Source of the DNA: Oscillospiraceae bacterium
GTDB taxonomy: Bacteria > Bacillota > Clostridia > Oscillospirales > Ruminococcaceae
Assembly: GCA_009776305.1 (NCBI GenBank)
Contig: WRLY01000001.1
Coordinates: 434,001-498,000 of the forward strand
Reading direction: 5' to 3'
Length of the DNA: 64,000 nt
Below the pieces are notes generated by a model that did no database searches, was not told the DNA's origin, and worked only from the letters and a program-made list of their open reading frames with translations. This document shows positions 15,862-60,696 of the stretch, one piece after another (the stretch's first letter is position 1; every line of letters starts with the position of its first letter). A program made the translations under genes and the position numbers.

Positions 15862-16704
15862 ATAAAACTTCTGACCTTAATCGAAAACACCGCCGCCAGC
15901 GAGAAGCTTTATACCGAACACGGGCTTTCTTTTTACATAGAGCATAAAGGGAAAAGGATTTTATTAGACGCGGGCGCTTCGGGGCTGTTCGCGAAAAATG
16001 CGGCGCGAATGTTAATAAATCTTGAAAGGCTTGATGCGGCAGTGCTTTCGCACAACCACATTGACCACGCGGGCGGCTTTGACGCGCTTCTCGGTTTTTG
16101 CCCCAAAATAAAAATATACGCTAAAAAAGACGTTTTGAACGGATTTTATAAAAAAGCGGGATTTTTCAGCGTACCTATAGGTCTCGGCAAGGAATATTTT
16201 GTCAAACGTGCGGATAATTTTGTGCTGTTTAACAGGTTTCAGCAGATTGCGGACGGTATTTTTTTGATGTCAAACGAGGTTTTCGATGATTGTTTTAAAG
16301 ACAATTCCCTGCTTATGAAAAAGTATGGTAAAATCGTTGCCGACGACTATTCGCATGAGCTTTTTATGGTGATTTTCCCTACTTTGGAGCCAAAAGACGG
16401 ATATGTTATAATTTCAAGCTGTACCCATTCGGGTATTGTCAATATATTGAACACAGCACGCCAAACTTGGGAGGGTGCGCCTGTTTTGGGATTTGTCGGG
16501 GGAATACATCTGACAAAAAATTCCGGTAAAAAGCTTATATGTCCACTTGAAGAAATAGAAAAAACCGCCTCTGAAATAAAGGCAATGGATATAGGTCCGG
16601 TATATGTCTGTCATTGCACGGGGCAAAAAGGCTACGAACGCCTGAAAATTCACCTCGGCGACCAGATTCAATATCTGCGGGCAGGCGAGGAACTCGAATT
16701 CTGA
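15862..16704 (+). CDS. Metallo-beta-lactamase-fold hydrolase with apparent AUA start
   Basis: A 280-residue MBL-fold hydrolase. The metal motif HNHIDH occupies residues 64-69. The N-terminus reads (M)KLLTLIENTAASEKLYTE, as expected for the family of small MBL proteins often annotated as MBL fold metallo-hydrolases, with substrate unknown. No ATG, GTG or TTG lies between the upstream stop at 15856 and ATG 16009, and starting at 16009 would remove about 49 conserved residues. The codon at the expected Met position is ATA 15862, ten bases after GGGAGG. A CTG at 15871 is less well spaced. It follows cheD by 62 bases, but a link to motility is not implied. Confidence 0.85.
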   Translation: MKLLTLIENTAASEKLYTEHGLSFYIEHKGKRILLDAGASGLFAKNAARMLINLERLDAAVLSHNHIDHAGGFDALLGFCPKIKIYAKKDVLNGFYKKAGFFSVPIGLGKEYFVKRADNFVLFNRFQQIADGIFLMSNEVFDDCFKDNSLLMKKYGKIVADDYSHELFMVIFPTLEPKDGYVIISSCTHSGIVNILNTARQTWEGAPVLGFVGGIHLTKNSGKKLICPLEEIEKTASEIKAMDIGPVYVCHCTGQKGYERLKIHLGDQIQYLRAGEELEF

Positions 16705-16706
16705 CA

Positions 16707-16795
16707 ATAAAAAATAAAACGCGGCTTTTATTCCTGTTTAAAATAAAAACACGATGGTTTTTATTTTAAAGGACTTATATAAGCGGCGTTTTTTA
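16707..16795 (+). terminator. Terminator-like nested hairpins after the flagellar/MBL operon
   Basis: A perfect 14-bp AT-rich inverted repeat (16737-16750 and 16757-16770, 6-nt loop) sits inside a weaker outer stem whose right arm, AAGCGGCG, is followed by six T. This would end transcription before glgP. The following AT-rich stretch to 16867 shows nothing else. Confidence 0.55.
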
Positions 16796-16867
16796 TAAAT
16801 TATGTAAAATTTATGTAAAAATCGTGAAAAAACTATACAAAATCGTACATAACCTATAATTTTCTTC

Positions 16868-16896
16868 TTGAAAAATAAATTAATTTGTAGTATAAT
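16868..16896 (+). promoter_or_regulatory. Sigma-A promoter of the glgP operon
   Basis: TTGAAA at 16868-16873 and TATAAT at 16891-16896, spaced by 17 bp, lie 74 bases upstream of glgP. This is a near-consensus vegetative promoter and gives an untranslated leader of about 65-70 bases. Confidence 0.8.
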
Positions 16897-16970
16897 TATA
16901 AAGACGGCTGAAAATTTACCGTATTCACATTAAATGATTGAAATTCAATATAGTATGAAAGGACACCGAG

Positions 16971-19370
16971 ATGAACGAATTAATTACAAAGCAAGAGCTA
17001 AAGCATCAGCTAAACGGAATTCTTGAGTTTGATTTGCGGGTTGCCCCCAAGGACGCCAATCTTAATCAAATTCACAAAGCGCTGTCTAAAATTATGGTCA
17101 ACTACCTAAAAGGAAAACGGCACAAGTTTTTAAACCGCGTAAATTCAAGCGGAGAAAAACAGGCGTATTACATATCTATAGAGTTTTTGATTGGGCGTTC
17201 GCTTAAAACAAATATCTTCAATCTCGGACTTAACGAGGTTGTAAGCGAGGCGCTAAAAGAAGAATTAGGCGTAAGCTTAGATAAAGTATATGAAACCGAA
17301 CCCGACGCAGGGCTCGGTAACGGCGGTTTGGGGCGGCTTGCGGCGTGTTATATGGATGCGCTGGCTACCTGTGAGTTTCCCGCTACGGGTTATTCTTTGC
17401 TTTACGAATTCGGGATTTTCAAACAAAAGCTTGAGGACGGTTGGCAGACCGAGTTCCCCGACGACTGGTTACCCGGCGGCGGCGTTTGGCTTAACCCCGT
17501 GCCCGACCACGCGATTGCGGTGAATTTTGACGGCGAAATCAAAGAATACTGGGAAGACAACTATCACCACATCGCCCACGTTAATTATAACACGGTTTAT
17601 GCCGTGCCTCACGACATGTACATTTCAGGCTATGACAGCAACGGCGTGTCTAAGCTCCGCCTTTGGAAGTCGCAGGCAATGACGTTCAACATGGGCGAGT
17701 TCAACGAGGGCAACTATGACGCGGCTATGGGCGGAAATAATATAGACAACGCCTTGACCAAGGTGCTTTATCCCAATGAAAATCACCGTCAGGGTAAAGC
17801 CTTGAGGCTTCGTCAGCAGTATTTCATGTGCGCCGCCTCTATAGGCGATATCGTAATGCGCCACATGAATACCTACGGAACATTAGATAATCTGCACGAA
17901 AAAGCGGCAATCCACATTAACGATACCCACCCGACCCTTGCAATTCCCGAGCTTATGAGAATCTTGCTTGACGACTGCGGATACAGTTGGGCAAAGGCGT
18001 GGCATATTATACAGCATACATTCGCCTATACCAACCACACGGTAATGGCGGAAGCTCTTGAATCATGGGACAAGGACTTGGTTCAAAGGATTTTACCGCG
18101 CATTTATTCGATTATCTGTGAAATCAACCGTCGCTATTGCGAAGGGCTTATGGAGCGTTATGAAGACCAGACAAAGGTAGACAAATTGTCTATAATCAGT
18201 AATAACAAGGTCAATATGGCGAACCTTTGCATTGACGGCTCACACTCGGTCAACGGAGTGTCAAGACTTCATTCCGACATTATAAAGGAATCTGTTTTCA
18301 AAGAACAGTATGAAGACCACCCGTTAAAGTTCAAAAACGTCACGAACGGCATAGCCTATCGCCGCTGGTTATTACAGTCGAACAAGAAACTTACGAACTT
18401 ACTTTCGGATTTAATCGGCGAGGACTTCAAGAAAGACGGACAGAAACTAAGCAGACTGCGGGTTTTTGAGAATGACTCGGTGGTTCATGAAAAGCTTGCT
18501 AAAATTAAGCGGAGCAATAAATCGGATTTTTCGTCCTGGGTTAAGAAACGCTACGGCATAGTTTTAAACCCCGACAGTATTTTTGACGTTCAGGCAAAAC
18601 GTCTGCATGAGTATAAGCGTCAACAGCTTAACGCCTTAAATATAATCGCCGATTATAATTTACTGCTTGAAAACCCCGACGCCGACTTCACGCCTAAAAC
18701 CTATATTTTCGCGGCTAAGGCGGCGCCCGGATATTATTTGGCAAAGCAAATCATCAAGCTGATTTGGTGCTTGGGGGAAGAGCTTAAAAAGAACCCTAAG
18801 ATTAACGAGAAATTAAGCGTGGCTTTCCTTGAGGATTACAGCGTTTCCCTCTCCGAGATTATGATGCCCGCAGCTGAGGTCAGCGAGCAGATTTCCCTTG
18901 CGGGAACTGAAGCGTCGGGTACGGGGAACATGAAGTTTATGCTAAACGGCGCAATCACCCTCGGCACTTATGACGGCGCTAACGTGGAAATTCACGAGCA
19001 TGTCGGCGATGACAATATCTTTATTTTCGGAATGAGTACGCCGGAAGTGAATATTATGCGTGCCAACGGCTATACTCCCGAAGGGTATTACACCCATAAT
19101 CAGGTAATAAAATCGGCAATCAACCGTATTCAAAACGGCATAAACGGAAACCAATTTGATGAGGTTTTAGAAATGTTTAAGACCAGCGACCGCTATATGT
19201 GTCTTGCCGACTTCGACAGTTACCGCAACGCCCAGGCAAAACTCAGTCGCGCTTATCTTGACAAGGGCAACTGGAACAAAATGTCGCTTGTCAACATTGC
19301 CGAGGCGGGATACTTTTCAGCCGACCGTTCGGTTTCGGAATATGCGACTAATATCTGGAATTTAGTGTAA
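16971..19370 (+). CDS. glgP: Glycogen/maltodextrin phosphorylase
   Basis: A 799-residue GT35 phosphorylase, the normal family length. It cleaves alpha-1,4-glucan with phosphate to give glucose-1-phosphate. The motif EASGTGNMKFMLNGAITLGT carries the lysine that binds pyridoxal phosphate, and DAGLGNGGLGRLAACYMDA near residue 110 is the substrate/cofactor region. It starts at ATG 16971 after GAAAGGA. A GH13 glucosidase and pyruvate kinase follow in the same direction, which suggests an operon taking storage glucan toward pyruvate. Confidence 0.96.
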   Translation: MNELITKQELKHQLNGILEFDLRVAPKDANLNQIHKALSKIMVNYLKGKRHKFLNRVNSSGEKQAYYISIEFLIGRSLKTNIFNLGLNEVVSEALKEELGVSLDKVYETEPDAGLGNGGLGRLAACYMDALATCEFPATGYSLLYEFGIFKQKLEDGWQTEFPDDWLPGGGVWLNPVPDHAIAVNFDGEIKEYWEDNYHHIAHVNYNTVYAVPHDMYISGYDSNGVSKLRLWKSQAMTFNMGEFNEGNYDAAMGGNNIDNALTKVLYPNENHRQGKALRLRQQYFMCAASIGDIVMRHMNTYGTLDNLHEKAAIHINDTHPTLAIPELMRILLDDCGYSWAKAWHIIQHTFAYTNHTVMAEALESWDKDLVQRILPRIYSIICEINRRYCEGLMERYEDQTKVDKLSIISNNKVNMANLCIDGSHSVNGVSRLHSDIIKESVFKEQYEDHPLKFKNVTNGIAYRRWLLQSNKKLTNLLSDLIGEDFKKDGQKLSRLRVFENDSVVHEKLAKIKRSNKSDFSSWVKKRYGIVLNPDSIFDVQAKRLHEYKRQQLNALNIIADYNLLLENPDADFTPKTYIFAAKAAPGYYLAKQIIKLIWCLGEELKKNPKINEKLSVAFLEDYSVSLSEIMMPAAEVSEQISLAGTEASGTGNMKFMLNGAITLGTYDGANVEIHEHVGDDNIFIFGMSTPEVNIMRANGYTPEGYYTHNQVIKSAINRIQNGINGNQFDEVLEMFKTSDRYMCLADFDSYRNAQAKLSRAYLDKGNWNKMSLVNIAEAGYFSADRSVSEYATNIWNLV

Positions 19371-19389
19371 ATTTTTAAGGAGCGTTTAT

Positions 19390-21351
19390 ATGACTAAACC
19401 CGTACCAATTTACGACTCTTTTAAGCAAGAATATAAAACCCCGTTCGGGGCGGTGCAAAGGAATACCGACTGTGTTTTTACCCTTCGCTTTCCGAATTTT
19501 ATGCAGGCGGAACAGGTTTCACTTATCATGTTTCGTCCCGGTCATAAGGAAAAATTCCTGCCGCTTGAGTATTATTCCAACGAGGACAATCTTTATAACC
19601 TTTACACCTGTACTTATACGCCGCAGGACGTAGGCTTGCATCAATATTATTTTTCCGTAGTAATGGGGGGAACTCGCAGCTTAATCAAGCGCTCGGGAGC
19701 AAGCGAGGGCTCGCTTAAAGGGACGGAACTTTTTCACCTTACAGTTTACGACGAAAGCGTTAAGCCTATAGAATGGCTTAAAGGCGGAATCATGTATCAG
19801 ATTTTCCCTGACCGCTTTAATAAAAGTGTCCCCGAAAATGATGAAGACCGCCCCCCCTCCCCCGTAGGGAGAACCCTGCATGTTGACTGGAATCAAACGC
19901 CCGACTGGAAACCCAATGCCCAGGGCATGATTACCAACACCGATTTTTTCGGGGGGAATCTGAAAGGGATTGAGGAAAAACTGCCCTATCTTTATTCGCT
20001 CGGAGTTACCTGCATTTACTTAAATCCTATTTTTGAATCTCACGAGAATCACAGATACAACACCGCGAATTATCATAAAATCGACCCCCTGCTGGGGAAA
20101 GAGGCGGATTTTGTCAGCCTTTGCGAAAAAGCTAAAAGGCTCGGAATGGGCATCATTTTGGACGGCGTTTTCAGCCATACCGGAGCCGACAGCGTGTATT
20201 TTAACAAATTCGGGCGTTACGGCTCTAACGTCGGGGCTTTCCGCGACCCCGAAAGTCCTTACAGGGCGTGGTATAATTTCATACATTACCCCAATGTCTA
20301 TGAATCATGGTGGGGCTTTGAAACCTTGCCCAACGTCAAAGAGAACGACCCCAATTACACCGAATTTATCTGCGGTACAGACGGTGTTTTGCAAAAATGG
20401 CTGAAGCTCGGCGCGTCGGGCTGGCGGCTTGATGTGGTTGATGAATTGCCGGACGAGTTTATTGACAACCTTAACCGCGCCGTTAAAGCCGTGGGCGAAG
20501 ACAAGGCGATTTACGGCGAGGTGTGGGAGGACGCGACCACAAAGGAAAGCTACGGGACAAGGCGACGTTATCTGACAGGCGGACAGCTTGACAGTGTGAT
20601 GAATTATCCTTTCAAGGAATGTATTTTAAATTATGTAAGACATTCGGACGCGCAGTTACTTCGGGACGGGGTTATGACCATTCTCGAACGTTATCCTAAA
20701 GCTTCGGCTGATATATTAATGAATTTTCTCTCCACCCATGATATAGAACGCGCCCTGACCCGCCTTGCCGGGAAAGAGCTCGGCAATAACGACCGCGAAT
20801 GGCAGGCGAAAAACACCCTTTCGGACGCCGAATACATGTACGGAATCGCACTCATGAAGTGTGCTATGGTTTTGCAGTTCTTCCTGCCCGGAATCCCTTG
20901 TATTTATTACGGTGACGAGGCGGGGGCGGAAGGGTACAAAGACCCCTTTAACCGTCGAACCTACCCTTGGGGCGGGGAAAACACCGATTTGCTTAAATTC
21001 ACCCGCGAGCTTGCGGCTGTAAGGAAAGCTTGTAAGGTTTTTGCTTCGGGCTATTTGGAATTTATTGAAGTCACTGCCGAAACCTGTGTGTTTTTGCGTA
21101 AAGACCGTGAGATTAATCAAGCCGCCGTAATATTCCTGAATAAATCCAAAGCCCCGCGCCGCTTTTCGCTAAAGTCGGTAGTCGGGGAGATAAGAAATCC
21201 GGAATTCATACGTGCTTCGGAGGAGGACGGCAGAAGGGTTTATGTCGCCCCTTACGACTATGCGGTAGTGAAATATGAATTAGCCGCACAAGACGCCGAC
21301 TTCAACCTCAATCATCAAAAGGTAAGAGAGGACATTTTAATTTATGAATAA
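19390..21351 (+). CDS. GH13 alpha-glucosidase/neopullulanase-like enzyme
   Basis: A 653-residue alpha-amylase family enzyme. An N-terminal beta-sandwich (about 1-125) precedes the catalytic barrel. Landmarks are YQIFPDRF at the barrel start, DGVFSHTG, the nucleophile Asp in GWRLDVVDELPDEF, the acid/base Glu in YGEVWED and the third carboxylate in LSTHDIERA. This pattern fits neopullulanase/maltogenic amylase-type enzymes that act on alpha-1,4/1,6 glucans. No signal peptide is seen, so the enzyme is probably cytoplasmic and complements glgP by dealing with branches or short oligosaccharides. Its end overlaps the pyk start by eight bases. Confidence 0.88.
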   Translation: MTKPVPIYDSFKQEYKTPFGAVQRNTDCVFTLRFPNFMQAEQVSLIMFRPGHKEKFLPLEYYSNEDNLYNLYTCTYTPQDVGLHQYYFSVVMGGTRSLIKRSGASEGSLKGTELFHLTVYDESVKPIEWLKGGIMYQIFPDRFNKSVPENDEDRPPSPVGRTLHVDWNQTPDWKPNAQGMITNTDFFGGNLKGIEEKLPYLYSLGVTCIYLNPIFESHENHRYNTANYHKIDPLLGKEADFVSLCEKAKRLGMGIILDGVFSHTGADSVYFNKFGRYGSNVGAFRDPESPYRAWYNFIHYPNVYESWWGFETLPNVKENDPNYTEFICGTDGVLQKWLKLGASGWRLDVVDELPDEFIDNLNRAVKAVGEDKAIYGEVWEDATTKESYGTRRRYLTGGQLDSVMNYPFKECILNYVRHSDAQLLRDGVMTILERYPKASADILMNFLSTHDIERALTRLAGKELGNNDREWQAKNTLSDAEYMYGIALMKCAMVLQFFLPGIPCIYYGDEAGAEGYKDPFNRRTYPWGGENTDLLKFTRELAAVRKACKVFASGYLEFIEVTAETCVFLRKDREINQAAVIFLNKSKAPRRFSLKSVVGEIRNPEFIRASEEDGRRVYVAPYDYAVVKYELAAQDADFNLNHQKVREDILIYE

Positions 21352-23110
21352 GACAAAAATTGTTTGCACTTTAGGTCCTGCCACCGAAGACGACGCAGTT
21401 CTGCGTGAGCTTATGAAAAGCGGAATGAACGTGGCAAGGCAGAATTTTTCTCACGGCGACCACGAAAATCACGCCAAGATTTTCAAACAGGTTAAAAGAA
21501 TCCGCGAGGAATTAGGCTTGCCTGTCGCCTCTCTGCTTGACACCGTAGGACCCGAAGTGAGGGTCAAGACCTTTAAGAACGGTAATGTCACCTTGGTTGA
21601 TAAGCAAAACTTTATACTTTCCACCATTGAATGTGAGGGCGATACCGAACGGGTTTCCATTACTTATGCTGATTTACCCAAAGACATTGAAATAGGGACG
21701 TCGGTTCTTGTGGACGACGGCTTAATTGAACTTAAAGTTATGGATTTTGTCCCTTGTGAGTGTGCTAAAACCGGCAAAAAAGGCACGGATATTATAACCC
21801 GCGTTATTCACGGCGGGGTGCTTAAAAACAGTAAATCCTGTAATTTCCCCGGCAAAAAACTCTCTATGCCCTATATTTCAAACCGCGACAAGGAAGATAT
21901 AATTTTCGGGGCAAAGCTCGGCTTTGATTTTATAGCCGCTTCTTTTGTGCGGTGTGACGAGGACGTGCTGGAGGTTCGTAAGATTTTAGAGGAAAACGGC
22001 GGGGGTGCGGTTAGGGTTATAGCCAAAATCGAGAATCAGGAGGGCGTTGACAATATAGACGACATTATTCGCGTTGCCGACGGTATAATGGTAGCCCGCG
22101 GCGACATGGGGGTTGAAATACCCTTTGAGGAATTGCCGCGTATTCAGAAAATGTTAATCAGGCGCGCCTACCTTGCGGGTATGCCTGTAATAACGGCAAC
22201 CCAAATGCTTGAATCTATGGTCAAAAACCCGCGTCCGACCAGAGCCGAAACCACCGACGTTGCTAATGCGATTTATGACGGCACGAGCGCGATTATGCTT
22301 TCGGGCGAGACAGCGGCGGGAGCTTTTCCTATAGAAGCTGTTCGGACAATGGTAAAAATAGCCGAATGTACCGAGGCTAATATAAATTACGCCGAACGTT
22401 TTCGCAGTTGGGCTTTTGACAAAGGCATGAACGTGACCAACGCGATAGCCCACGCCACGGTGACGACTGCGCTTGACTTAGAGGCAAAGGCTATTTTAAC
22501 CGTAACTCACGGCGGAAATACAGCGCGTCTGTTATCCAAATTCCGTCCTCATCAGCCCGTATTAGGCTGTACGCCAAGCGAGATGTCGTGGCGGCAGATG
22601 AGTATGAGCTGGGGCGTGAGACCGATTATGGCGGAGGAAGAGGACAACACCGACGACCTTTTGCAACACGCGGTAGAGCGGGCGGTTGAAGAGGGTTATC
22701 TTGAGAACGGCGACCTTGTGGTTATAACTGCGGGAGTTCCCGTTGGGTTTTCGGGTACTACCAACCTCATGAAAGTGCATACCGTTGGCGATATTTTAGT
22801 CAGCGGGACAGGTATAACCGAAAAAATAGTGACCGCGCCACTTTGCGTTGTCCTGACAGTGGAGGACGCGCTCCGCGATTTCGCGAAAGGCGACATTTTA
22901 GTCGCGCCTAAGACTGACAACTCGCTAATGCGGATTTTACGCTCGGCAAGCGGAATTATAGTCGAGGAAGACGGAGCTGACAGCCATGCAGCGATTGTAG
23001 GACTTACGCTGGATATTCCCGTAATAGTCGGGGCGAAGAACGCCACCAAAATCCTTAAAAGTGGTGTAGCGGCAACGTTGGACGCGAGAAAAGGAATGGT
23101 TTTGAATTAG
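21344..23110 (+). CDS. pyk: Pyruvate kinase with C-terminal PEP-utilizing domain
   Basis: A 588-residue pyruvate kinase making ATP and pyruvate from PEP and ADP. MNKTKIVCTLGPAT is the family start; the catalytic region includes AKIENQEGVDNID and GIMVARGDMGVEIPFE, and MVKNPRPTRAETTDVANAI is the effector/signature region. After the regulatory domain an extra domain of about 75 residues (about 512-588) carries GADSHAAIVG and IPVIVGAKN, like the PEP-utilizing mobile domain found in Bacillus-type enzymes. The ATG overlaps the end of the GH13 gene, implying translational coupling. Confidence 0.95.
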   Translation: MNKTKIVCTLGPATEDDAVLRELMKSGMNVARQNFSHGDHENHAKIFKQVKRIREELGLPVASLLDTVGPEVRVKTFKNGNVTLVDKQNFILSTIECEGDTERVSITYADLPKDIEIGTSVLVDDGLIELKVMDFVPCECAKTGKKGTDIITRVIHGGVLKNSKSCNFPGKKLSMPYISNRDKEDIIFGAKLGFDFIAASFVRCDEDVLEVRKILEENGGGAVRVIAKIENQEGVDNIDDIIRVADGIMVARGDMGVEIPFEELPRIQKMLIRRAYLAGMPVITATQMLESMVKNPRPTRAETTDVANAIYDGTSAIMLSGETAAGAFPIEAVRTMVKIAECTEANINYAERFRSWAFDKGMNVTNAIAHATVTTALDLEAKAILTVTHGGNTARLLSKFRPHQPVLGCTPSEMSWRQMSMSWGVRPIMAEEEDNTDDLLQHAVERAVEEGYLENGDLVVITAGVPVGFSGTTNLMKVHTVGDILVSGTGITEKIVTAPLCVVLTVEDALRDFAKGDILVAPKTDNSLMRILRSASGIIVEEDGADSHAAIVGLTLDIPVIVGAKNATKILKSGVAATLDARKGMVLN

Positions 23111-23135
23111 TATATTGAACGGAGGAAAAACTAAA

Positions 23136-23966: not shown

Positions 23967-23980
23967 ATTTGCTCTTAAAT

Positions 23981-24020
23981 AAAAAAACAAACCGCCCCCT
24001 TTCGGGCGGTTTGTTTTTTT
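23981..24020. terminator. Bidirectional terminator between pyk operon and atpC
   Basis: A perfect 17-bp inverted repeat (23981-23997 and 24004-24020, 6-nt loop) has a GC core (ACCGCCC / GGGCGGT), an A-run on the left and a T-run on the right, so it can terminate both strands. The atpC stop codon lies inside its right edge. Confidence 0.92.
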
Positions 24021-24420
24021 ATTTTCCTGCCGCATCAAGGCGGTTAAGGGCGCGTTTTAGCTTAAATTCAGCAACGGCGTGTTCGTTTGCGCTTAGTGAA
24101 ACGTCGGAAAGCCTTTTTTCGGCGGTTTTCTTTGCCTCTTCGGCGCGTTCCACATCGATTTTATCGCCCCATTCACAGCTTTGCGCCAAAATCGTGGTTT
24201 TGTCCAATCCTACTTTAAGAATACCGGACGACACCGCCGCGAGTCGGTACTGACCGTCAATCTTGATTCTGACTTTTCCAATACCGAGCGCCGCAACATA
24301 AGGCTCGTGTTTGGCAAGTATACCCACATCTCCGACAGTAGTACGCGCAATTACGTTTTCGGTTTCGCCTTTAAAAAAGACGCCGCGCGGGGTGATTATT
24401 TGAAGTTTAAATGGGGTCAT
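24019..24420 (-). CDS. atpC: F-type ATP synthase epsilon subunit
   Basis: A 133-residue epsilon subunit of the F1 central stalk. The beta-sandwich starts FKLQIITPRGVFFKGE and includes VGDVGILAKHEPYVAALGIG; the C-terminal helical pair follows from about residue 90. It couples rotation to the F0 ring and can inhibit ATP hydrolysis. It is the last ATP synthase gene, but it is split from atpD by a lipoprotein gene and has its own promoter-like sequence 78-106 bases upstream. Confidence 0.93.
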   Translation of the reverse strand: MTPFKLQIITPRGVFFKGETENVIARTTVGDVGILAKHEPYVAALGIGKVRIKIDGQYRLAAVSSGILKVGLDKTTILAQSCEWGDKIDVERAEEAKKTAEKRLSDVSLSANEHAVAEFKLKRALNRLDAAGK

Positions 24421-52044: not shown

Positions 52045-52079
52045 TTTTCCCTCCTTTATTATTGGGGCAAACCCACCGG

Positions 52080-54449
52080 TTACTTTTTACTTTTATACCG
52101 CAAAACAATTTTTTCCGCCAATCGTGGGAAAATGATACAAAGCGGGAGCGTAAATACGCAAAGAAAAAAGGTTACAACGTGCATTTGAGCGGTGAACTCC
52201 GTTACCGAAAGCAGGTCGTCAAAAATATTTACCGACAGCGAAAACAAAACCCCGCAAAGTGCAATCAGCGCAAGCCTTTGCTTGTTTATAGGGCGGCAGA
52301 TTCCGCATAGAATCGCAAAGGATACCATGCCGAGAACAATGGTCGCCGCAGTGCGGGTCTCTTCAAAAGAGAAATCGAAAATCCCTGCGAATAAAGTCAG
52401 TAAAGCTATTCCAATCACGGCGCAAAGACCGTATGGAACGGCTTTTATGAGTACGTTTTGTAAAAATCCGCCGCGTACAAGGCTACGGTTTTTCTCAAAC
52501 GCCAATATAAAAGCGGGTAATCCTATAAAAAGACTGCTTATCAGCGTCATTTGAACCGGCAAAAAAGGGTAAGGCACGGTTAAAAACAGGAAAATTACAG
52601 CCAAAAGCAGTGAATATACGGTTTTAGCCAAAAACAACGCCGCGCCGCGTTCAAGGTTGTTGATACTGCGCCGTCCCTCCGCTACGGCTTTCGGGAGGGA
52701 AGAAAAATTGTTGTCTAAAAGCACAAGACTTGAAACATTCCGCGCCGCCTCACTGCCCGATTGCATAGCTACAGAACAATCAGCTTCTTTAAGCGGCAAC
52801 ACGTCGTTTACACCGTCGCCGACCATGCCGACGGTGTGGTTTTGTCTGAGGGTTTTTATAAGCTCTAATTTCATTTGCGGCGTGACCCGCCCGAAAATTG
52901 TATACTTTTCGGCGATTTCTGCGATATTTACACTATAAGTATAATTTTTATCCTGCGACGGATTATCATTTACGGAGATTTTGCTCATATCTATATAATT
53001 TTCCGCATCTTTTACCCCTGCCGAAAGAGCCGCGCTTTTAACCGTCAGCGGGTTATCCCCCGATATTATTTTTATTTTAACGCCATGCCTGTGAAAATAA
53101 TTGAGGGTTTTTTTAGCTTCCGGGCGAACCACATCGCTTACGGATAAAACGGCGACAGGTTTCAAGGCTTGAGGCAGGCTATTATTATCATCAATGCCAA
53201 GGTGGGATTTGGCTAATATTAAAACTCTTTTGCCCTCGGATATGAGTTGCTTGGATAAAACGGAGTTGCCTAAAATAAACTCTTCAGCACCGAGAATATA
53301 ACTTCCTTTGTTTTTAAAGCTCGCGCCGCTCCACTTGCGGGAGCTTGAAAAGGGGACTGTTTTCTCGGCTTGCCAGTCGGTGCTTTTTGAATATGTCTTT
53401 CTTATGGCTGAAGCGGTGGGGTTTTTGTCGGGAAGAACACTCATAAGGGTGCAAAGCGCGTTTTCGATTTCGCGTAAGTCTGAATTATAAAGCGGGGTAA
53501 GGCTTTCAATGTTCATGTCGCCGGAGGTTATCGTCCCCGTTTTGTCAAGGCAGAGCAGGTCAACCCGCGCAAGGGTTTCGGCGCAGTACATGTCGCGTGC
53601 GAGTGCGTTATGGGATGAAAGTCTTATAACGCTGATTGCCATGACTATACCGGTGGTTAAAATCAGCCCTTGCGGTATCATGCCAATCAGAGCCGCGACC
53701 GAGCTGTTGATGGCGTCAGCCATGTCGTCGCCTGTGAAAAACAGGGATTTTATAAAAAGAATAATTCCTACTGGGACAATCACAAATGTCATGCTTTTTA
53801 TGATTTTATCAATTGAGCGCAACGTTTCTGAAACGGGTTTTTTAAGGTATTTCGCACCTTTCATTATAGAAAAAGCAAAGCTGTCCTCTCCGATTTTCCT
53901 TACTATGGCGGCGGCTTCCCCGCAGATTACAAAACTGCCCGAAAGGAGGGAATCCCCTGCTTTTTTACCTACAGGATGGCTCTCGCCTGTAACAAGGCTT
54001 TCATTGACCTCAATTTCGCCTGTTAAAATTTCACTATCGGCGGGAATTTGCATACCTTCGCTTAGAATTATAACCTCGTCAAGGACAATAAGTGAAATGG
54101 GTATTTCGGTTATTTTGCCATCGCGCAGAACCGCTGCCTTTGCCGCGCTTATGAGCGAAAGTCGGTCTATGACCCGTTTGGCTCTTATTTCCTGAATTAT
54201 GCCTATAGCGATGTTGGCAATGATTACGCCTATGAACAACATGTTTTCATATTCGCCCGTCAGAAAAACCGCCGCCGCCAAACAAAGGTTCAGCATATTG
54301 AAAAACGTCAGCGTGTTTGTCCGAAAAATTTCGGCTATGGATTTGGAGGGAATATTTTGTTCTCCGTTGACTTGCCCCGATTTTTCGCGGTCAGAAACCT
54401 CGTATGATGTTAAGCCCTGTAAATTTTGGTAATTATTTTTATAATTCAT
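52080..54449 (-). CDS. P-type cation-transporting ATPase (CtpE-like), apparently leaderless
   Basis: A 789-residue P-type ATPase. The phosphorylated Asp302 lies in [13 protein letters not shown], the actuator motif [13 protein letters not shown] and the hinge motif [15 protein letters not shown] are intact. It has no N-terminal heavy-metal domain, and the sequence resembles HAD-IC/CtpE-type transporters, for which Ca2+ transport has been proposed; the ion is unknown here. ATG 54449 has no ribosome site and lies only seven bases after a TATACT -10 box, so the mRNA probably starts at or next to the AUG. Confidence 0.9.
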
Positions 54450-54456
54450 GTTATAT

Positions 54457-54485
54457 AGTATAGTCTTTTTTTTAAAATTTGTAAA
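54457..54485 (-). promoter_or_regulatory. Promoter of the P-type ATPase gene
   Basis: On the minus strand TTTACA (54485-54480) and TATACT (54462-54457) are separated by 17 bp. Seven bases separate the -10 box from ATG 54449, giving a leaderless or nearly leaderless transcript. Confidence 0.7.
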
Positions 54486-54505
54486 GGGAAAATGAAAATA
54501 ACCTC

Positions 54506-54534
54506 TCGACAAACCGCAAAAATTATGCTATACT
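54506..54534 (+). promoter_or_regulatory. Promoter upstream of the NUDIX gene
   Basis: TCGACA at 54506-54511 and TATACT at 54529-54534 with a 17-bp spacer lie 75 bases before the NUDIX start. The same transcript could continue through the SRP RNA and dnaX, since no terminator was seen between them. Confidence 0.6.
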
Positions 54535-54608
54535 GGGTATAATATTGCCGGGATGGACGTATAACTTCTCTGTTTCGGCGTCTACAATATCGGAAAGGGC
54601 GGATAGAT

Positions 54609-55025
54609 TTGGTACACGAAAAGTCTTGCGGCGCCATAGTTTACAGGAAATTTCACGGCAATACAGAGATTTTACTAATCAGGCACATAAAGTCGGGATA
54701 CTGGTCATTCCCTAAGGGTCACGCGGAGGAGGGTGAAACAGAAGTCCAGACCGCCGAACGGGAAATCAAGGAAGAAACGGGACTTGATGTTTTTATAGAT
54801 TCGGGTTTTCGCGAAACTGTAACCTTTTCTCCGCGGCGCGACGCCACAAAAACAGTTGTTTATTTTGTTGCAAGGGCAAAGAACTATGAGGTTTCCCCGC
54901 AGGCGGGTGAAATTTCCGAAATAAAGTGGGTGGAAATAGGCAAAGCAAACAAACACCTTACATACGATAATGACCGGGTGATTGTCAGTCGGGCAAAGGC
55001 GTTTATAGCGTTGATGAAAAATTAA
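54609..55025 (+). CDS. NUDIX hydrolase (Ap4A hydrolase-like)
   Basis: A 138-residue NUDIX hydrolase. The NUDIX box GHAEEGETEVQTAEREIKEE (residues 37-56) continues TGL and matches GX5EX7REUXEEXGU fully. The start CGAIVYRK and SFPKGHAEEGE are like bis(5'-nucleosyl)-tetraphosphatases. Translation begins at TTG 54609, after AAAGGGCGG. It is divergent from the P-type ATPase and just upstream of the SRP RNA. Confidence 0.9.
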   Translation: MVHEKSCGAIVYRKFHGNTEILLIRHIKSGYWSFPKGHAEEGETEVQTAEREIKEETGLDVFIDSGFRETVTFSPRRDATKTVVYFVARAKNYEVSPQAGEISEIKWVEIGKANKHLTYDNDRVIVSRAKAFIALMKN

Positions 55026-55030
55026 GAAAT

Positions 55031-55166
55031 GCCCTGAATCCTGCTTGCAGCCGCAAGCCCCGCACAAGGACGCCCCGCGAACCATGTCAGGCGGGGAACC
55101 GAGCAGCATTAAGCGGTCAGCGACCTGTGTTGCGTTAAAGCTTGCGGTTGCAAGCAGGATTCAGGC
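55031..55166 (+). ncRNA. ffs: Signal recognition particle RNA (small bacterial type)
   Basis: A 136-base RNA with a long near-perfect terminal helix: 55031-55057 pairs with 55141-55166 (GAATCCTGCTTGCA with TGCAAGCAGGATTC). The apical domain IV is clear: GTCAGG (55086-55091), a three-pair stem capped by the GGAA tetraloop (55095-55098), then AGCAGC (55102-55107). These are the universally conserved Ffh-binding elements. Length fits the short 4.5S-like type without an Alu domain. The order SRP RNA-dnaX-ebfC-recR matches Bacillus subtilis scr-dnaX-yaaK-recR, which confirms the call. Confidence 0.95.
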
Positions 55167-55192
55167 AAAATCAGAATAAAGTCGGTGATAAT

Positions 55193-56773
55193 ATCTACTT
55201 AGCCTTATACAGAAAATACCGTCCTATGACGTTTAGGGACGTTTTTTCGCAGGAGCATATAACTACCACCCTGCAAAACCAAATTATAAACAACCAGACT
55301 GTGCATGCCTATCTTTTTACAGGCTCGAGGGGGACGGGGAAAACTACCTGTGCGAGAATTTTGGCAAAGGCAATCAACTGCCTTTCTCCCGAGAACGGCA
55401 ACCCCTGTCTTAAATGCGAAGCCTGTGAGATGATTGAAAACGGTGCTCAGGACGTAAGCGAAATAGACGCGGCTTCTAATAACGGCGTGGACGATGTACG
55501 GGTTTTGCGTGATGAAACCCGTTATGCACCCGTAAGTCTTAAATACCGCGTTTATATAATCGACGAGGTTCACATGTTAAGTGCGGGTGCTTTCAACGCG
55601 CTGTTAAAAACGCTTGAAGAGCCGCCCGCCCACGTTGTTTTTATACTTGCCACGACCGAGAATCATAAAGTCCCCGCCACCATACTTTCAAGATGTCAGC
55701 GGTTTGAGTTCAGGCGGGTTAATTCAGCCGACTGCGCGACCGCGCTGAAAAGTGCCGCTAAATCGGAGAACGTGAAAATGACCGACAGTGCCGCCGAGCT
55801 GATTGCAAGGCTTTCGGACGGCGGAATGAGGGACGCGCTGTCGCTTTTGGAAACCTGTATTTCTCATCTTTCCGGTAACGCTGATAAATCGGAAATTACC
55901 GAAGAAATAGTCAGAAACGCTGCCGGAGTTGCGGGTAGCGAGCATGTTTTCGGGATTTCCAACGCCGTTTCAGAGGGTAATACCGGCGCGGCGCTGAAAG
56001 TTGTAAATTCCCTCTACGAGCAGTCAAAAGATATGGGGAGACTGTTGGTTGAGCTTATACGGCATTACAGGAATCTTATGTTGCTTAAACTTATGCCGAA
56101 TGAAACCGAGATGATTTCGTGGTTTCCCGAAGAGGTAGAAGATTACCGCCGCCTTTGCGGGAAATATGATTTAAAACGTATATTGAAATGTCTTGCTTTT
56201 TTAGAAGAGTATTCTGAGAAAATGTCGCGTCGGGATAAAAGACTTGCGACAGAAATGTGCATAATTGAAATGTGCTTAGATGAAGACACACACAATACAG
56301 CGGCAGCTATCCAACAACCAATCCAACAGCCCGCGCCGCCGAAAGCACAAATCCCCGCCCCTTTGCCTCCCGAACCGCAACCGGATTTGCCCCCGCAGAC
56401 CAATCAGCACGCGGACTTTGAAAAACAGGCGGTCGGTGGCGTAGCGCCGCTGTGGGGAGCGGTTTTAAGGGAATTGCCTGCGTTTTTAGCGGGAATGTTG
56501 GAGGATGCGGAGGTCAATTTAAGTGAAGACATACTTGAAATAACCGATAATGAATTCACGGGAGGCGTGATTGAAAACGCCGACAACAGGGCTAAAATCA
56601 TTGCCGCAGTTTTTAAAGTAACGGGAAAAAACGCGGAACTGCGGTTTATAAAAAGGAGCGTGGGAAAACCCGACTTTCCGCCCCAAATCGCAGAGAGCGG
56701 CGAACAGCATGAAAAATTAAACCAAACAATGGATTTACTAAAACAAAAAGGAATAAAGGTGATTGAAAAATGA
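55193..56773 (+). CDS. dnaX: DNA polymerase III gamma/tau subunit with apparent AUC start
   Basis: A 526-residue clamp-loader subunit. The N-terminus reads (M)YLALYRKYRPMTFRDVFSQE, which in other bacteria begins MYQALYRKYRP. Walker A is GSRGTGKTTCARILAKAI, the zinc-binding cysteines are CLSPENGNPCLKCEAC, and IDEVHMLS is Walker B. The codon at the Met position is ATC 55193, three bases after GGTGAT. The only other in-frame starts, TTG 55142 and 55148, lie inside the SRP RNA 3' end without a ribosome site. A Pro/Gln-rich linker (about 380-420) leads to a tau-like domain. Confidence 0.93.
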   Translation: MYLALYRKYRPMTFRDVFSQEHITTTLQNQIINNQTVHAYLFTGSRGTGKTTCARILAKAINCLSPENGNPCLKCEACEMIENGAQDVSEIDAASNNGVDDVRVLRDETRYAPVSLKYRVYIIDEVHMLSAGAFNALLKTLEEPPAHVVFILATTENHKVPATILSRCQRFEFRRVNSADCATALKSAAKSENVKMTDSAAELIARLSDGGMRDALSLLETCISHLSGNADKSEITEEIVRNAAGVAGSEHVFGISNAVSEGNTGAALKVVNSLYEQSKDMGRLLVELIRHYRNLMLLKLMPNETEMISWFPEEVEDYRRLCGKYDLKRILKCLAFLEEYSEKMSRRDKRLATEMCIIEMCLDEDTHNTAAAIQQPIQQPAPPKAQIPAPLPPEPQPDLPPQTNQHADFEKQAVGGVAPLWGAVLRELPAFLAGMLEDAEVNLSEDILEITDNEFTGGVIENADNRAKIIAAVFKVTGKNAELRFIKRSVGKPDFPPQIAESGEQHEKLNQTMDLLKQKGIKVIEK

Positions 56774-57126
56774 AAGCGAGATTACCCAAAGAATACCAAA
56801 ACAAAGGCGCCGGAAATATGAACGACATGATTCGTCAGGCGCAGAAAATGCAGGAGCAGGTTAAAATCAAGCAGGAAGAGCTTGCCGAGCGGGAGTTTTC
56901 CACTACGGCGGGCGGCGGCATGATTGAGCTTGTTATGACGGGTGCGCATGAGCTGAAATCGGTGAAAATTAACCCCGACCTGATTGACCCTGAAGCCCCC
57001 GAGGATTTGGAAGATATGGTCATCGCGGGCGTAAACGCGATGATACAAAAGGTTGATGAGGAAAGCGCGGCTGAAATGGAAAAGGTTACGGGCGGCTTGG
57101 ATTTGGGAATGGGAATAGGGCTTTAA
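56770..57126 (+). CDS. YbaB/EbfC family nucleoid-associated protein
   Basis: A 118-residue DNA-binding protein. MNDMIRQAQKMQEQVKIKQE and the following segment with GGGMIELVMTGAHELKSVKI are the family core; the end is Gly/Met-rich. The ATG overlaps the dnaX stop (ATGA), so translation is coupled. The first 16 residues (KARLPKEYQNKGAGN) are an N-terminal extension; an internal start at MNDMIRQ is possible. Confidence 0.92.
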   Translation: MKARLPKEYQNKGAGNMNDMIRQAQKMQEQVKIKQEELAEREFSTTAGGGMIELVMTGAHELKSVKINPDLIDPEAPEDLEDMVIAGVNAMIQKVDEESAAEMEKVTGGLDLGMGIGL

Positions 57127-57383
57127 AGGTTGATTGATTCGCGCAACATCGTTTCAAAAATATGGCGACAGCCGTAGCCGTAACCGCGTTTAAAGTTTAT
57201 TAAACTTATTTCCGATAAATAATCCCCCTCGGCGGTTTCGTATTCAAAAAACAGCTTTTTCCCCTCTTCGTCAAGATGTTCGGATATTTTTTCGCTTAAA
57301 TTTAATTTTTTAGTGAAAGCTTGGCTGTAATTTAAAGGCAGGGGTTCAAGCGAATAATAGAGTTCGTCAAGTATGTTTTTCAT
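57123..57383 (-). CDS. DUF6809-like small protein
   Basis: An 86-residue protein from ATG 57383, with AAAGGA upstream. The start MKNILDELYYSLEPLPLN and the end FKRGYGYGCRHIFETMLRE match my memory of DUF6809 proteins, common in Clostridia and of unknown function. It lies on the opposite strand inside the dnaX-recR operon, overlaps the ebfC stop by four bases and is divergent from an HTH gene. A promoter with perfect boxes but a 15-bp spacer precedes it. Confidence 0.75.
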   Translation of the reverse strand: MKNILDELYYSLEPLPLNYSQAFTKKLNLSEKISEHLDEEGKKLFFEYETAEGDYLSEISLINFKRGYGYGCRHIFETMLRESINL

Positions 57384-57401
57384 GGTGTTAAATCCTTTCT
57401 G

Positions 57402-57428
57402 ATTATAACGAAGCTCGCTCCGTGTCAA
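57402..57428 (-). promoter_or_regulatory. Promoter of the DUF6809 gene with a short spacer
   Basis: On the minus strand TTGACA (57428-57423) and TATAAT (57407-57402) are both perfect but are only 15 bp apart. The spacer contains the imperfect palindrome GGAGCGAGCTTC. It lies in the gap with the divergent HTH gene, a natural place for autoregulation. Confidence 0.55.
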
Positions 57429-57446
57429 TAGTTTTTGGAGATTATT

Positions 57447-57668
57447 ATGAAAAATTTTAGCGAATGTTTAAAAGTGTTGAGAGAATCGAAAAAACTAACA
57501 CAGAAACAGGTTGCCAACGGTATGGGCATATCTGAACGCGCCTATCAAAGATATGAAGGCGAAGGCGCGAAACCCTCTTTTGATGCGCTTATTGCACTTT
57601 CTGATTTTTTTGATATATCGGCGGATTATTTTTTGGGACGTTTGGACGATAAGAAAGGACAAGAATAA
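57447..57668 (+). CDS. XRE-family HTH regulator
   Basis: A 73-residue, single-domain regulator from ATG 57447 with GGAG nine bases upstream. The helix-turn-helix is LTQKQVANGMGISERAYQRY, followed by GAKPSFDALIALSDFFDISA and DYFLGR, typical of Cro/C1-type proteins in Firmicutes. Its stop codon directly touches the recR start (TAAATG), so the two are translated together. The divergent DUF6809 gene is the obvious candidate target. Confidence 0.88.
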   Translation: MKNFSECLKVLRESKKLTQKQVANGMGISERAYQRYEGEGAKPSFDALIALSDFFDISADYFLGRLDDKKGQE

Positions 57669-58268
57669 ATGCCCGAATACACCCCCCTACCGCTTGTTTT
57701 AGCGGCGGAGCAGTTTGCGCGGCTACCCGGAATCGGCATGAAAACAGCGCAGAGGCTTGCCTATCATATACTGACCATTCCCGACGAAGATGTTGAGGAA
57801 TTCGCGAACACCTTGGTTGCGGCGCGGCGGGCGGTGCGTTGCTGTGCGGTTTGCCAAAACTTTACCGAAAAGGAAACCTGCGCCGTTTGCTCCGATAATA
57901 GGCGTGACGGTACGGTGATATGCGTGGTTGAAGCGCCTCGGGACGTGAGTGCGATTGAGCGGGCAGGCGGCTTTGAGGGAGCATACCATGTATTGCACGG
58001 ATTGCTGTCGCCTATGGACGGAACGGGACCCGAGCATATTCGCATAAAAGAGCTGATGACGCGACTTTCAGGAGAAGTCGGCGAGGTGATTATGGCGACT
58101 AATCCGACGGTTGAGGGCGAGGCGACGGCGAGTTATATCAGTAGGCTGATTAAACCCATGGGGGTAAAGGTAACGCGGTTAGCTTACGGACTGCCTGTGG
58201 GGGCGAGCTTAGAGTTTGCAGATGATGTGACGCTTGTGAGGGCGTTGGAGAATAGGAATGTAATATAA
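57669..58268 (+). CDS. recR: Recombination mediator RecR
   Basis: A 199-residue RecR. The N-terminal helix-hairpin-helix RLPGIGMKTAQRLAYHIL, the zinc finger CCAVCQNFTEKETCAVC near residue 58 and the Toprim segment VICVVEAPRDVSAIERAGGF are all present. RecR acts with RecF and RecO to load RecA on SSB-coated DNA. It ends the dnaX cluster before a strong terminator. Confidence 0.96.
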   Translation: MPEYTPLPLVLAAEQFARLPGIGMKTAQRLAYHILTIPDEDVEEFANTLVAARRAVRCCAVCQNFTEKETCAVCSDNRRDGTVICVVEAPRDVSAIERAGGFEGAYHVLHGLLSPMDGTGPEHIRIKELMTRLSGEVGEVIMATNPTVEGEATASYISRLIKPMGVKVTRLAYGLPVGASLEFADDVTLVRALENRNVI

Positions 58269-58300
58269 AAAACGGTTGCTCTTGAAAGCAACCGTTTTTT
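58267..58300. terminator. Bidirectional terminator between recR and jag
   Basis: A perfect 14-bp inverted repeat (58267-58280 and 58287-58300, 6-nt loop) with GC core CGGTTGCT / AGCAACCG, a T-run on the plus strand and an A-run on the other. It separates the convergent recR and rpmH-jag operons and lies 18 bases after the jag stop. Confidence 0.92.
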
Positions 58301-58317
58301 TATATTACTTATTTAAC

Positions 58318-59262
58318 TTATAACTCAATCTTCCCTGCCGACGCGTTCTTTTCAAAATCTACCGTATCCTGTGAAATTTCTACGTTCTCGGAAGGGCTTG
58401 TGCTACGCTTGTATTCGCGCTCAAATGAAGTCTGAAAGCCGCTTGACTGTTTGTAGGAGCGTCCCGGTGTAATCGGGCGGTTTCCGCGGTTATCCCGATT
58501 GTCCCTGCCGCCGCGGTTATCTCTGAAGTCCCGATTGTCGCGTCCGCCTCTGGGTTTCGGAACATTTGCGGAAATTACCACCTTGCGGAAAGGCTCTTCA
58601 CCCACCGAACTGCTGAAAACGCCCTGTATTTCCGCTACTTTACTGTGGATAATACGCCTTTCGTAAGGGTTCATGGGTTCAAGAGTAATGCGTCTGCCCT
58701 GTTTTAAAACCTTGCTTGCTGTACGGGCAGCTAAGGTTTCAAGGGTCTCGCGGCGTTTTTCGCGGTATCCGTTGCAATCGACCGATATGCGCTTAAAATG
58801 CCCGCCTGAGCGATTATTAGCTAAAATTGCAAGATACTGCAAACTGTCAAGGGTTTCGCCCCTGCGCCCTATTGCTATGCCGAGCTTGTCACCGACTATG
58901 TCGAGAACTGCGGAATCTTCCTTTTCAATAACGTCTATGTGGAAACCGTCCGCGCCGAGACCTTTGAGTATATTCTCAATATAGGTAATAACGCGGGAAT
59001 AGTCGCCGCTTTCCGAAACCGCCGACTGCGATTGCGCTGTCGGTTTTGCGGAACTTGATGCTTTTACCGCAACTGCGTCCTCTTTTACGTCGGCGCCGGC
59101 GTTGATGATATAATCGCCCTTAGTGCCGCCGAAAAGCTTTTTTACAGGCTGTTCAATCACGTTATATTTTACGTCAAGCTCGTCAACGCCGTATTTTGCG
59201 AAAAATTCATAAGCCTGCGCTTTGGCTTCATCTAAGGATTTACCGCTGAATTTTTTTTCCAT
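58318..59262 (-). CDS. jag: Jag/KhpB family RNA-binding protein with RG/RD-rich tail
   Basis: A 314-residue protein. The Jag N-terminal domain (about 1-55; KKFSGKSLDEAKAQAYEFF) is followed by a linker, a KH domain with GRRG in IGRRGETLDSLQYLAIL and an R3H domain with NPYERRIIHSKVAEI. After residue about 234 there is an unusual tail with repeated RDNRD/RGGRDNR units, resembling RGG-type RNA-binding regions. KhpB binds many RNAs with KhpA and affects cell elongation in other Firmicutes. Its ATG touches the yidC stop. Confidence 0.92.
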   Translation of the reverse strand: MEKKFSGKSLDEAKAQAYEFFAKYGVDELDVKYNVIEQPVKKLFGGTKGDYIINAGADVKEDAVAVKASSSAKPTAQSQSAVSESGDYSRVITYIENILKGLGADGFHIDVIEKEDSAVLDIVGDKLGIAIGRRGETLDSLQYLAILANNRSGGHFKRISVDCNGYREKRRETLETLAARTASKVLKQGRRITLEPMNPYERRIIHSKVAEIQGVFSSSVGEEPFRKVVISANVPKPRGGRDNRDFRDNRGGRDNRDNRGNRPITPGRSYKQSSGFQTSFEREYKRSTSPSENVEISQDTVDFEKNASAGKIEL

Positions 59263-60696
59263 TTATTCTTCCCCTTCATCAGTTGGTTTTTCGTCATCAA
59301 TTGTTGGTTGCTTATCGGGTTCAGGTTCGGGCTTGTCATATTCTGAAAGGTCTACATCAGGAACTTCACCGTATTTTTCAAGGTCGGCTTTACGCGCTTC
59401 TTCAAGTTTTTTGCGGAAGTATTCCTTTTGCTCCTTACCGCTCATGTCAGAAAGCTTTTCTTCCTTTATGACCTCGTTACCGTCTTGGTCAACGTCTACG
59501 ATTTTAGCTGTGGCGTCAACCATGCCGTTTTTGATTTTTGCGTTTGCACGGGCTTCTTCCCTCATTCTTTCGGGAGGCCAGAACTTATATATGATTACAC
59601 TCTGGGCTATACCGAACAGATAACCGATTGACCAGTAAAGCCCCGCCCCTGCCGGTACGGCAAATATGATGAACAGGGTGATTATGGGACCCATTAAAAT
59701 CATTGCTTTCATGCCGCCTGATTTTGACACTTCGGGCATGGTTCTTCTTTGGATAAATTGCTGTACCGCCACCTGAGCTACCGAGAAAACAAAGCCGAGC
59801 ATGGCAAGAAGCCACAGCCTGTTAAATGTCGTGTAATGCGGTGTTTCGCCAAGGTGTATGCCGAGGAAAACCATGTTTTCGTTTAATCTTTTAAGCTTTG
59901 CCCCATTATCCTGACTAAGGGTGGAAAAAGCTTCGGGGGAGCGGGAATACTGCAAAATGGAATGAAGCTCGCTCTGCAAACCTCTGTATTTCGCATCCAC
60001 GCCTTTAAGTGCGATTTTCACGGGTTCTGACAGTCGTGATTCAGCGCCGGTCAGAAAGCTCAAGTTGTAGGCTACATATTCCCCCACAAGCTCCCGCTCA
60101 TAGTTGGAAACGGAGGTGGAAACAATAACATCTTTTAATTCCGGAAGCGTTCCGTCAAAATTATAGACGACCTGCTGCCTGTCCGGATTGTCCTCAACCT
60201 TTTTGAAAATTTCAACATCTTCGCTTTCGGCAAATTCAAGAAAAAGTTCAAAATCCCCCTCGCTTGAACGCACTATAGAGGTATATTCGGTTTGTATACC
60301 GAGCTCCTGCACAGCGGCTATTGTTTCCTTATCGAAACGTTCAACGTGAGTCATAGGCTTATAAACCACGTCCAACATACCGAAAAGGAGAATCATGGTA
60401 AGAATCATAGGTCCGCAACCGCCCATCGGGTTGTAGCCCTCTTTTTGGAGTTTTTGCATTTCCTCCTGCATTTTCTGCTGATTCCCGCGGTACTTTTTTT
60501 GTATTTCCTGTACACGGGGCATGAAAAGCTGAGAAACCGCCATGTTTTTCTGCTGTTTGAGCATTAAGGGAAAGCTTGCCGCTCTTGCTATGATGGTAAA
60601 TAAAATTACCGCCACGCCGAAGTTGTTGACCAAAAGATACAAAAGCCACATTACATAACCGAGCGGAGTACCTATTAGTGAATATATAAATCCTAT
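59263..60696 (-). CDS. yidC: Membrane protein insertase YidC with apparent AUA start and large external loop
   Basis: A 477-residue insertase. The first residues read (M)GFIYSLIGTPLGYVMWLLY and NFGVAVILFTIIARAASFPL, matching short YidC/SpoIIIJ proteins, with the groove arginine Arg38. The Met position is coded by ATA 60696, five bases after GGTGAT; the next in-frame start, ATG 60651, has no ribosome site and would remove the conserved PLG segment. Between the second and third membrane helices there is a segment of about 170 residues (about 125-295), much longer than in Bacillus. The C-terminus is long and acidic. Confidence 0.93.
   Translation of the reverse strand: MGFIYSLIGTPLGYVMWLLYLLVNNFGVAVILFTIIARAASFPLMLKQQKNMAVSQLFMPRVQEIQKKYRGNQQKMQEEMQKLQKEGYNPMGGCGPMILTMILLFGMLDVVYKPMTHVERFDKETIAAVQELGIQTEYTSIVRSSEGDFELFLEFAESEDVEIFKKVEDNPDRQQVVYNFDGTLPELKDVIVSTSVSNYERELVGEYVAYNLSFLTGAESRLSEPVKIALKGVDAKYRGLQSELHSILQYSRSPEAFSTLSQDNGAKLKRLNENMVFLGIHLGETPHYTTFNRLWLLAMLGFVFSVAQVAVQQFIQRRTMPEVSKSGGMKAMILMGPIITLFIIFAVPAGAGLYWSIGYLFGIAQSVIIYKFWPPERMREEARANAKIKNGMVDATAKIVDVDQDGNEVIKEEKLSDMSGKEQKEYFRKKLEEARKADLEKYGEVPDVDLSEYDKPEPEPDKQPTIDDEKPTDEGEE

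Follow-up and report, generated by a model that had tools for sequence, protein, structure and literature searches.

Probable AUA, AUU and AUC start codons of yidC and dnaX in a lineage of Ruminococcaceae

Conserved non-canonical start codons are known for few bacterial genes. In Escherichia coli, infC starts at a codon of the AUU/AUC/AUA type that takes part in the autoregulation of its product, the initiation factor IF3, and pcnB of the same bacterium is said, after Binns and Masters in 2002, to start at AUU, a weak codon that reportedly limits its translation. A study of Staphylococcus aureus (PMC13009471) reports, in the part of its text considered here, an AUA start for infC and three AUU/AUA starts with extended Shine-Dalgarno elements whose output is about 10% of that of AUG in poor medium and, in the case of ccpN, as much as 30% in rich medium. 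The present work deals with a 64,000-nucleotide stretch of the genome of an Oscillospiraceae bacterium (assembly GCA_009776305.1, contig WRLY01000001.1, forward-strand positions 434,001 to 498,000), hereafter the window, in which a sequence-only reading had proposed AUA or AUC starts for three genes: yidC, encoding a membrane protein insertase, dnaX, encoding the gamma/tau subunits of DNA polymerase III, and a gene for a metallo-beta-lactamase (MBL)-fold hydrolase. The yidC and dnaX starts resemble that of infC in having AUA, AUU or AUC codons (ATA, ATT or ATC in the DNA, collectively AUH) preceded, at a similar distance, by a strong Shine-Dalgarno, and differ from it in that the yidC AUH is limited, among the loci examined, to one genus-level clade. 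With pcnB they would share a weak codon that limits translation, in other genes and another phylum. Like the AUA of ccpN (Staphylococcus and also Bacillus subtilis) and the AUU of cvfC1 (Staphylococcus), they combine a conserved non-canonical codon with an extended start-proximal Shine-Dalgarno, but for ccpN and cvfC1 an output below that of AUG was measured, as far as the same part of that source goes, whereas yidC and dnaX are other genes, known from comparative sequence alone (PMC13009471). Such starts are therefore of a known kind; what is new is the genes and the near fixation of the codon over a genus-level clade in yidC and over a subclade in dnaX. Among the open PMC text matches listed, no report of a non-AUG start for yidC or dnaX was found.

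All three AUH codons are located, as had been claimed, at the N-terminus of the respective family and behind a Shine-Dalgarno element. The AUA of yidC (60694..60696, minus strand; gene 59263..60696, 477 aa; Pfam 60KD_IMP 2.2e-34, TIGR03592 2.5e-35) is preceded by an in-frame TGA, three codons before it, and by a start-proximal GGGTGAT (60702..60708, minus strand) with a computed pairing value, used throughout as the measure of Shine-Dalgarno strength, of -13.8; the first canonical codon (ATG, GTG or TTG) is codon 16 (ATG 60651). The AUC of dnaX (55193..55195, plus strand; gene 55193..56773, 526 aa; TIGR02397 2.1e-124) follows a GGTGAT (55184..55189, plus strand; -11.1, spacing class 7), position 1 of TIGR02397 (dnaX_nterm) aligns to residue 2 of the AUC-started frame, and the next canonical codon downstream is an ATG at codon 12. 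The AUA of the MBL gene (15862..15864, plus strand; gene 15862..16704, 280 aa; Pfam Lactamase_B 3.5e-13) lies two codons after an in-frame TAA, at the point where the alignment to relatives begins, behind a GGGAGG (15846..15851, plus strand; -13.0), with no canonical codon before codon 50 (ATG 16009). The accompanying claim that canonical codons are missing stands for the family position in all three genes and without reserve for yidC and MBL, but dnaX does have two upstream TTG codons, neither with a usable Shine-Dalgarno. Gene callers limited to ATG, GTG and TTG would misplace such N-termini, at codon 16 in yidC and at codon 50 in the MBL gene.

The comparison with relatives is most extensive for yidC. 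The genome that carries the window is a 71% complete draft (1.54 Mb, 7 contigs), and the genus sample comprised 71 genomes. The yidC set was built from 22 genus genomes (own genome included) and 77 loci from named genomes (best 80 matches), the N-terminus being present in 75 of these 77; 3 extra genus loci and 6 from sister genera brought it to 106 loci and 87 distinct proteins, of which 81 form the genus-level clade. Only identical proteins were merged, so that some rows possibly belong to the same species, and start states were assigned mostly by a spacing rule, 11 of the 87 being set by hand from the sequence. An AUH start was found in 75 of the 81 clade loci (ATA 46, ATT 23, ATC 6); the other six comprise four ATG (L052, L053, L235, L236), one TTG (L043) and one unclear start, probably GTG (L253). 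Mean pairing over the 75 AUH loci is -11.8, and 69 of them show spacing class 8 or 9. In 44 of the 75, the AUH codon follows the in-frame stop with no ATG, GTG or TTG in between; 2 have a canonical codon upstream whose Shine-Dalgarno is usable, and in 9 the first canonical codon downstream is preceded by a Shine-Dalgarno. In the 68 loci without length shift, mean column entropy over codons 2-15 is 0.78, 0.27 and 1.58 at codon positions 1, 2 and 3, and 1.69, 1.61 and 1.72 over the 45 nt upstream of the AUH, where there is no periodicity: the coding periodicity of yidC sets in at the AUH codon. The invariant first two bases of that codon in the 68-row set are a consequence of how the rows were chosen and are no evidence.

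The comparison set from beyond the clade comprised 51 yidC loci: 8 belong to four sister genera within the family, the others to further families of the order, and one genome (G034) is represented twice. Both sets were scored alike by one rule that demanded a Shine-Dalgarno of -6 or better at spacing class 5-12 and covered the region up to codon 11, beginning 40 codons upstream or at the in-frame stop. A canonical codon with a Shine-Dalgarno was present in 6/81 clade loci versus 46/51 outside loci, or 47/51 at a laxer threshold, and the remaining four (L056, L316, L329, L351) have an ATG at the site by eye. Fisher's test for AUH starts in 75/81 versus 0/51 gives about 3e-30 with relatedness ignored. 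These counts replaced an earlier one that accepted any canonical codon regardless of Shine-Dalgarno, within a span that opened at the in-frame stop or 60 nt upstream and closed at codon 8, and found one in 53/97 loci. On the yidC tree, AUH and canonical states are separated by 4 changes over the 87 rows, and the start codon changes 20 times within the 81, about 17 times among ATA, ATT and ATC once the ATG clade, the TTG row and L253 are subtracted, one change each. This tree was built quickly, has several long branches and gave rise to warnings, so its details are unsure; the odd row L253 is placed near its base. The pattern is consistent with a single origin of the AUH start near the base of the clade, followed by ATG in one four-row clade and TTG in one row, and the weak yidC start is probably an old trait of the genus-level clade. 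Its third base turns over often, to G in one clade only; that 1 of 18 third-base changes is to G has a probability of 0.007 if one third of them would be expected to be so, and of 0.04 if one quarter would. This record constitutes a natural experiment on the tolerance of start selection. As a separate observation, uncut AUH-started YidC proteins span 437-537 aa and the four ATG-started clade members 390-411 aa, the difference being a stretch after the second membrane segment; length tracks the start codon, but the ATG rows are a single clade.

For dnaX, the start was inspected in 43 genus genomes, with 8 AUH, 1 CTG (G005) and 33 ATG, GTG or TTG starts, and one genome (G247) not called by the script. 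The AUH set comprises the own genome and the seven relatives whose DnaX is nearest to its own (67-79% identity, against 52-53% for the hits that follow by score), so that AUH is present in 8/8 subclade genomes, as ATC in G000, G020, G023, G043 and G249 and as ATT in G012, G017 and G228. In G012 and G020 there are zero canonical codons from the in-frame stop to the AUH. The dnaX AUH thus appears likely to belong to the subclade of the window. The MBL start was read in 5 of 8 subclade genomes, own genome included, plus more distant rows: it is ATA in G000 and G023, ATT in G012 and ATG in G017 and G020, and ATG or TTG in the more distant readable rows. Since AUH occurs in 3/5 only, its conservation in this gene is weak, and the state probably comes and goes. 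Taken together, the comparison with relatives gives good support to translation starting at the AUH codons. In yidC and dnaX these codons are common to many independent genomes, which excludes the assembly error that the sequence-only reading had named as a refutation.

How frequent such starts are across the genome was addressed by an ortholog test, in which a canonical codon was scored if at, or within two codons of, the start of a relative and each gene was counted once. In the own genome, 121 genes gave 88 canonical starts, 3 AUH (dnaX, a TrmL-like gene with ATC and a PadR gene with ATT) and 30 without class. The corresponding figures were 155 genes, 125 canonical, 1 CTG (mreC-like) and 29 without class in G023; 120, 103, 0 non-canonical and 17 in G010; and 101, 68, 0 and 33 in G014. 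Non-canonical starts thus make up 3/91 of the classed genes in the own genome versus 1/126, 0/103 and 0/68, and the own genome may have more AUH starts than its relatives, which would be a mild lineage effect. A strict sequence-only scan of 1658 genes of four genomes, the kind of search that had been suggested for genes lacking a canonical start behind a good ribosome site, returned AUH in 5 of 47 hits against about 3.7 expected (106 of 1331 opportunities), no excess even though genes with hits of both kinds were counted in a way that favours AUH. AUH starts thus characterize certain genes, and may be somewhat more frequent in this lineage. Other approaches were set aside. A first ortholog census flagged 14/134 own-genome genes, of which only MBL was judged real, the others being rejected because their alignments ran into conserved Shine-Dalgarno elements or frame overlaps. 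An unconstrained 64-codon start model (464 kb, own genome) and two sequence-only scans served to raise candidates only, being too noisy because neighbouring codons share the Shine-Dalgarno signal; in one of these scans many decoy codons performed at least as well as AUH.

The initiation machinery itself offers little that is unusual. Among 29 tRNA matches in the incomplete own genome there is one initiator-type tRNA with anticodon CAU and, by our reading, three G-C stem pairs, and none of initiator type with another anticodon; a hand-typed initiator-tRNA pattern had no match. As far as these matches show, the initiator tRNA looks ordinary. The 16S gene was not found in the incomplete own genome, and the 3' tail of the 16S of a congener (G014) is ordinary. 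The infC gene and its protein, whose inspection had also been proposed, were compared over 30 genus loci and 30 outside loci (best 30 of 57 listed matches). An AUH codon with a Shine-Dalgarno is present in 60/60 loci (30/30 in each set), without canonical rival in 46/60, a canonical codon with some Shine-Dalgarno lying nearby in 7 of each 30. At the 12 to 13 positions compared, numbered as in E. coli, the IF3 of the window has nothing absent from other families. Elsewhere in the genus, a glycine of the IF3 C-terminal domain is lost in 21/30 loci (infC L132-L161) and kept in 30/30 others, with a one-residue insertion beside it in the alignment; the subclade of the window is normal in this respect. 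Divergence of IF3 was rejected as a cause, given that the glycine change is absent from that subclade and that the lack of Arg112 is common to 26/30 loci outside the genus.

We favour as probable the explanation that AUA and AUC are real starts in these genes and that a weak codon, placed after an extended Shine-Dalgarno, keeps initiation low. The ordinary initiator tRNA (anticodon CAU), as formyl-Met-tRNA, would read AUH with a third-position mismatch disfavoured by IF3, and the strong start-proximal Shine-Dalgarno (GGTGAT-like in yidC and dnaX) would partly offset the weakness of the codon. In vitro data on AUU with a CAU anticodon indicate, in the part of the source considered, that IF3 disfavours a mismatched start (PMC10158994), and by analogy with published systems both the damping and any response to IF3 might extend to the genes described here. 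Low initiation would then mean low protein output from possibly abundant transcripts, yidC lying behind rnpA-yidD and dnaX behind the RNA of the signal recognition particle (SRP). If both genes are on well-transcribed RNA, output could be kept down simply by a weak start codon; this is conjectural, because the SRP RNA precedes dnaX in most genus loci scanned, whatever their start codon. Neither gene encodes an initiation factor, so a direct feedback loop like that of infC would not be expected. The sequence-only reading had offered low-level initiation as regulation and relaxed IF3 discrimination as two possible meanings, and the former fits best because the AUH of yidC is kept over most of the clade while its third base varies. 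This retention suggests that the weak start holds YidC production down, and in yidC and dnaX the weak codon is seemingly held in place.

Several observations weigh against this explanation. AUH codons with a Shine-Dalgarno stand beside the canonical codon in 21/51 outside yidC loci; being so common, their presence alone proves little, and it is the missing canonical codon that constitutes the evidence. Some canonical codon lies upstream in 31/75 AUH yidC loci, and the yidC group L237-L268 mostly carries a GTG 9 nt upstream, inside the Shine-Dalgarno, where a start is possible. The window dnaX has its in-frame TTG codons at 55148 and 55142 (15 and 17 codons upstream), in G249 an ATG whose computed Shine-Dalgarno is fair (-9.7) precedes the AUH of dnaX by 9 codons, and in G017 and G043 the ATGs upstream of it have poor Shine-Dalgarno elements. 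These codons would favour a start elsewhere, whether at a canonical codon upstream or at the first one inside the gene, which we nevertheless judge very improbable: the pairing at the two TTG codons is -2.6 and -4.3, 44/75 yidC loci and the dnaX of G012 and G020 have no upstream canonical codon at all, and a start at the first internal one, seldom provided with a Shine-Dalgarno in yidC, would drop conserved residues. Also adverse are the ATG start of the MBL gene in 2/5 close genomes (G017, G020), the modest weight of the third-base argument, which is supportive but not strong, and the proximity of SRP RNA, rejected as a cause of the dnaX AUH since it is common to AUG-started relatives. The variation of MBL and mnmG between AUH (or ACG) and AUG among relatives would be expected if the AUH starts were real but neutral, a strong Shine-Dalgarno making the codon matter little; this is doubtful, as the yidC third base, despite its many changes, became G in one clade only and S. 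aureus reporters lose most of their output despite extended Shine-Dalgarno elements, according to the part of that study considered (PMC13009471). Sequencing or assembly errors, or decayed genes, deserve almost no credence even in a 71% complete draft, for the AUH codons recur in independent genomes, in two relatives in the case of MBL, and the frames are intact with good family scores.

A generally relaxed start selection in the lineage, through an altered IF3, 16S methylation or initiator tRNA, would let AUH codons drift in behind strong Shine-Dalgarno elements without purpose. The 3 AUH against 88 canonical starts of the own genome, set beside the lower congener figures (1/126, a CTG, 0/103 and 0/68), would fit this idea, as would the further likely own-genome cases described below (a SpoIIE-type phosphatase gene, mraZ, and mnmG with ACG) and the loss of the IF3 glycine in much of the genus. 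We regard it as unlikely, since that glycine change is absent from the subclade of the window, the AUH start of infC in all loci makes sense if discrimination works, the strict scan lacked an AUH excess, and fixation of AUH in a single gene across a clade is not what relaxation would predict. As a general state, relaxed IF3 discrimination is not supported, in view of the canonical majority in the ortholog test, the strict scan, the infC starts, the ordinary initiator tRNA and the ordinary 16S 3' end of the congener; in the strict scan of four genomes AUH starts were not enriched, the ortholog test being less clear for the own genome. A further reading is that AUH starts of this genus mark a small IF3-responsive gene set made up of infC, yidC and subclade dnaX, with the TrmL-like gene, PadR and others, all under a common translational throttle. 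It is a speculative proposal to which we give little weight; if true, the output of membrane insertion and clamp loader would follow the IF3-to-ribosome ratio together with IF3.

Regarding the surroundings of the two genes, the order upstream of yidC is rnpA, yidD, then yidC, with yidD at 60733..60981 (minus strand; Pfam YidD 1.6e-25) and rnpA, for the RNase P protein, at 61028..61378 (minus strand; Pfam Ribonuclease_P 3.5e-24). A small SRP RNA (55051..55150, plus strand; Rfam RF00169, 60.4 bits) ends 42 nt before the dnaX start, and the same RNA precedes dnaX in 18/20 genus loci scanned, mostly without a long T run before dnaX. Elsewhere in the own genome, a likely ATC start is seen in the TrmL-like gene (L094, minus strand) and likely ATT starts in the PadR gene (L098:17422) and in a gene for a SpoIIE-type phosphatase (L098:1524), the latter without a canonical codon anywhere from its in-frame stop as far as codon 21. 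The candidate ATT start of mraZ (L093, minus strand) is ambiguous, a GTG sitting within its Shine-Dalgarno; the names TrmL-like and mraZ are those we presume to apply. In the relative G023, a CTG starts a gene that we read as mreC-like (L280:11637), which has ATG in G014. Finally, mnmG of the own genome (L107:14027) carries ACG at the family start behind AGGAGGG, the stretch between the in-frame stop and codon 26 being free of canonical codons, and by eye its relatives have ATA, ATT or ATG at this position.

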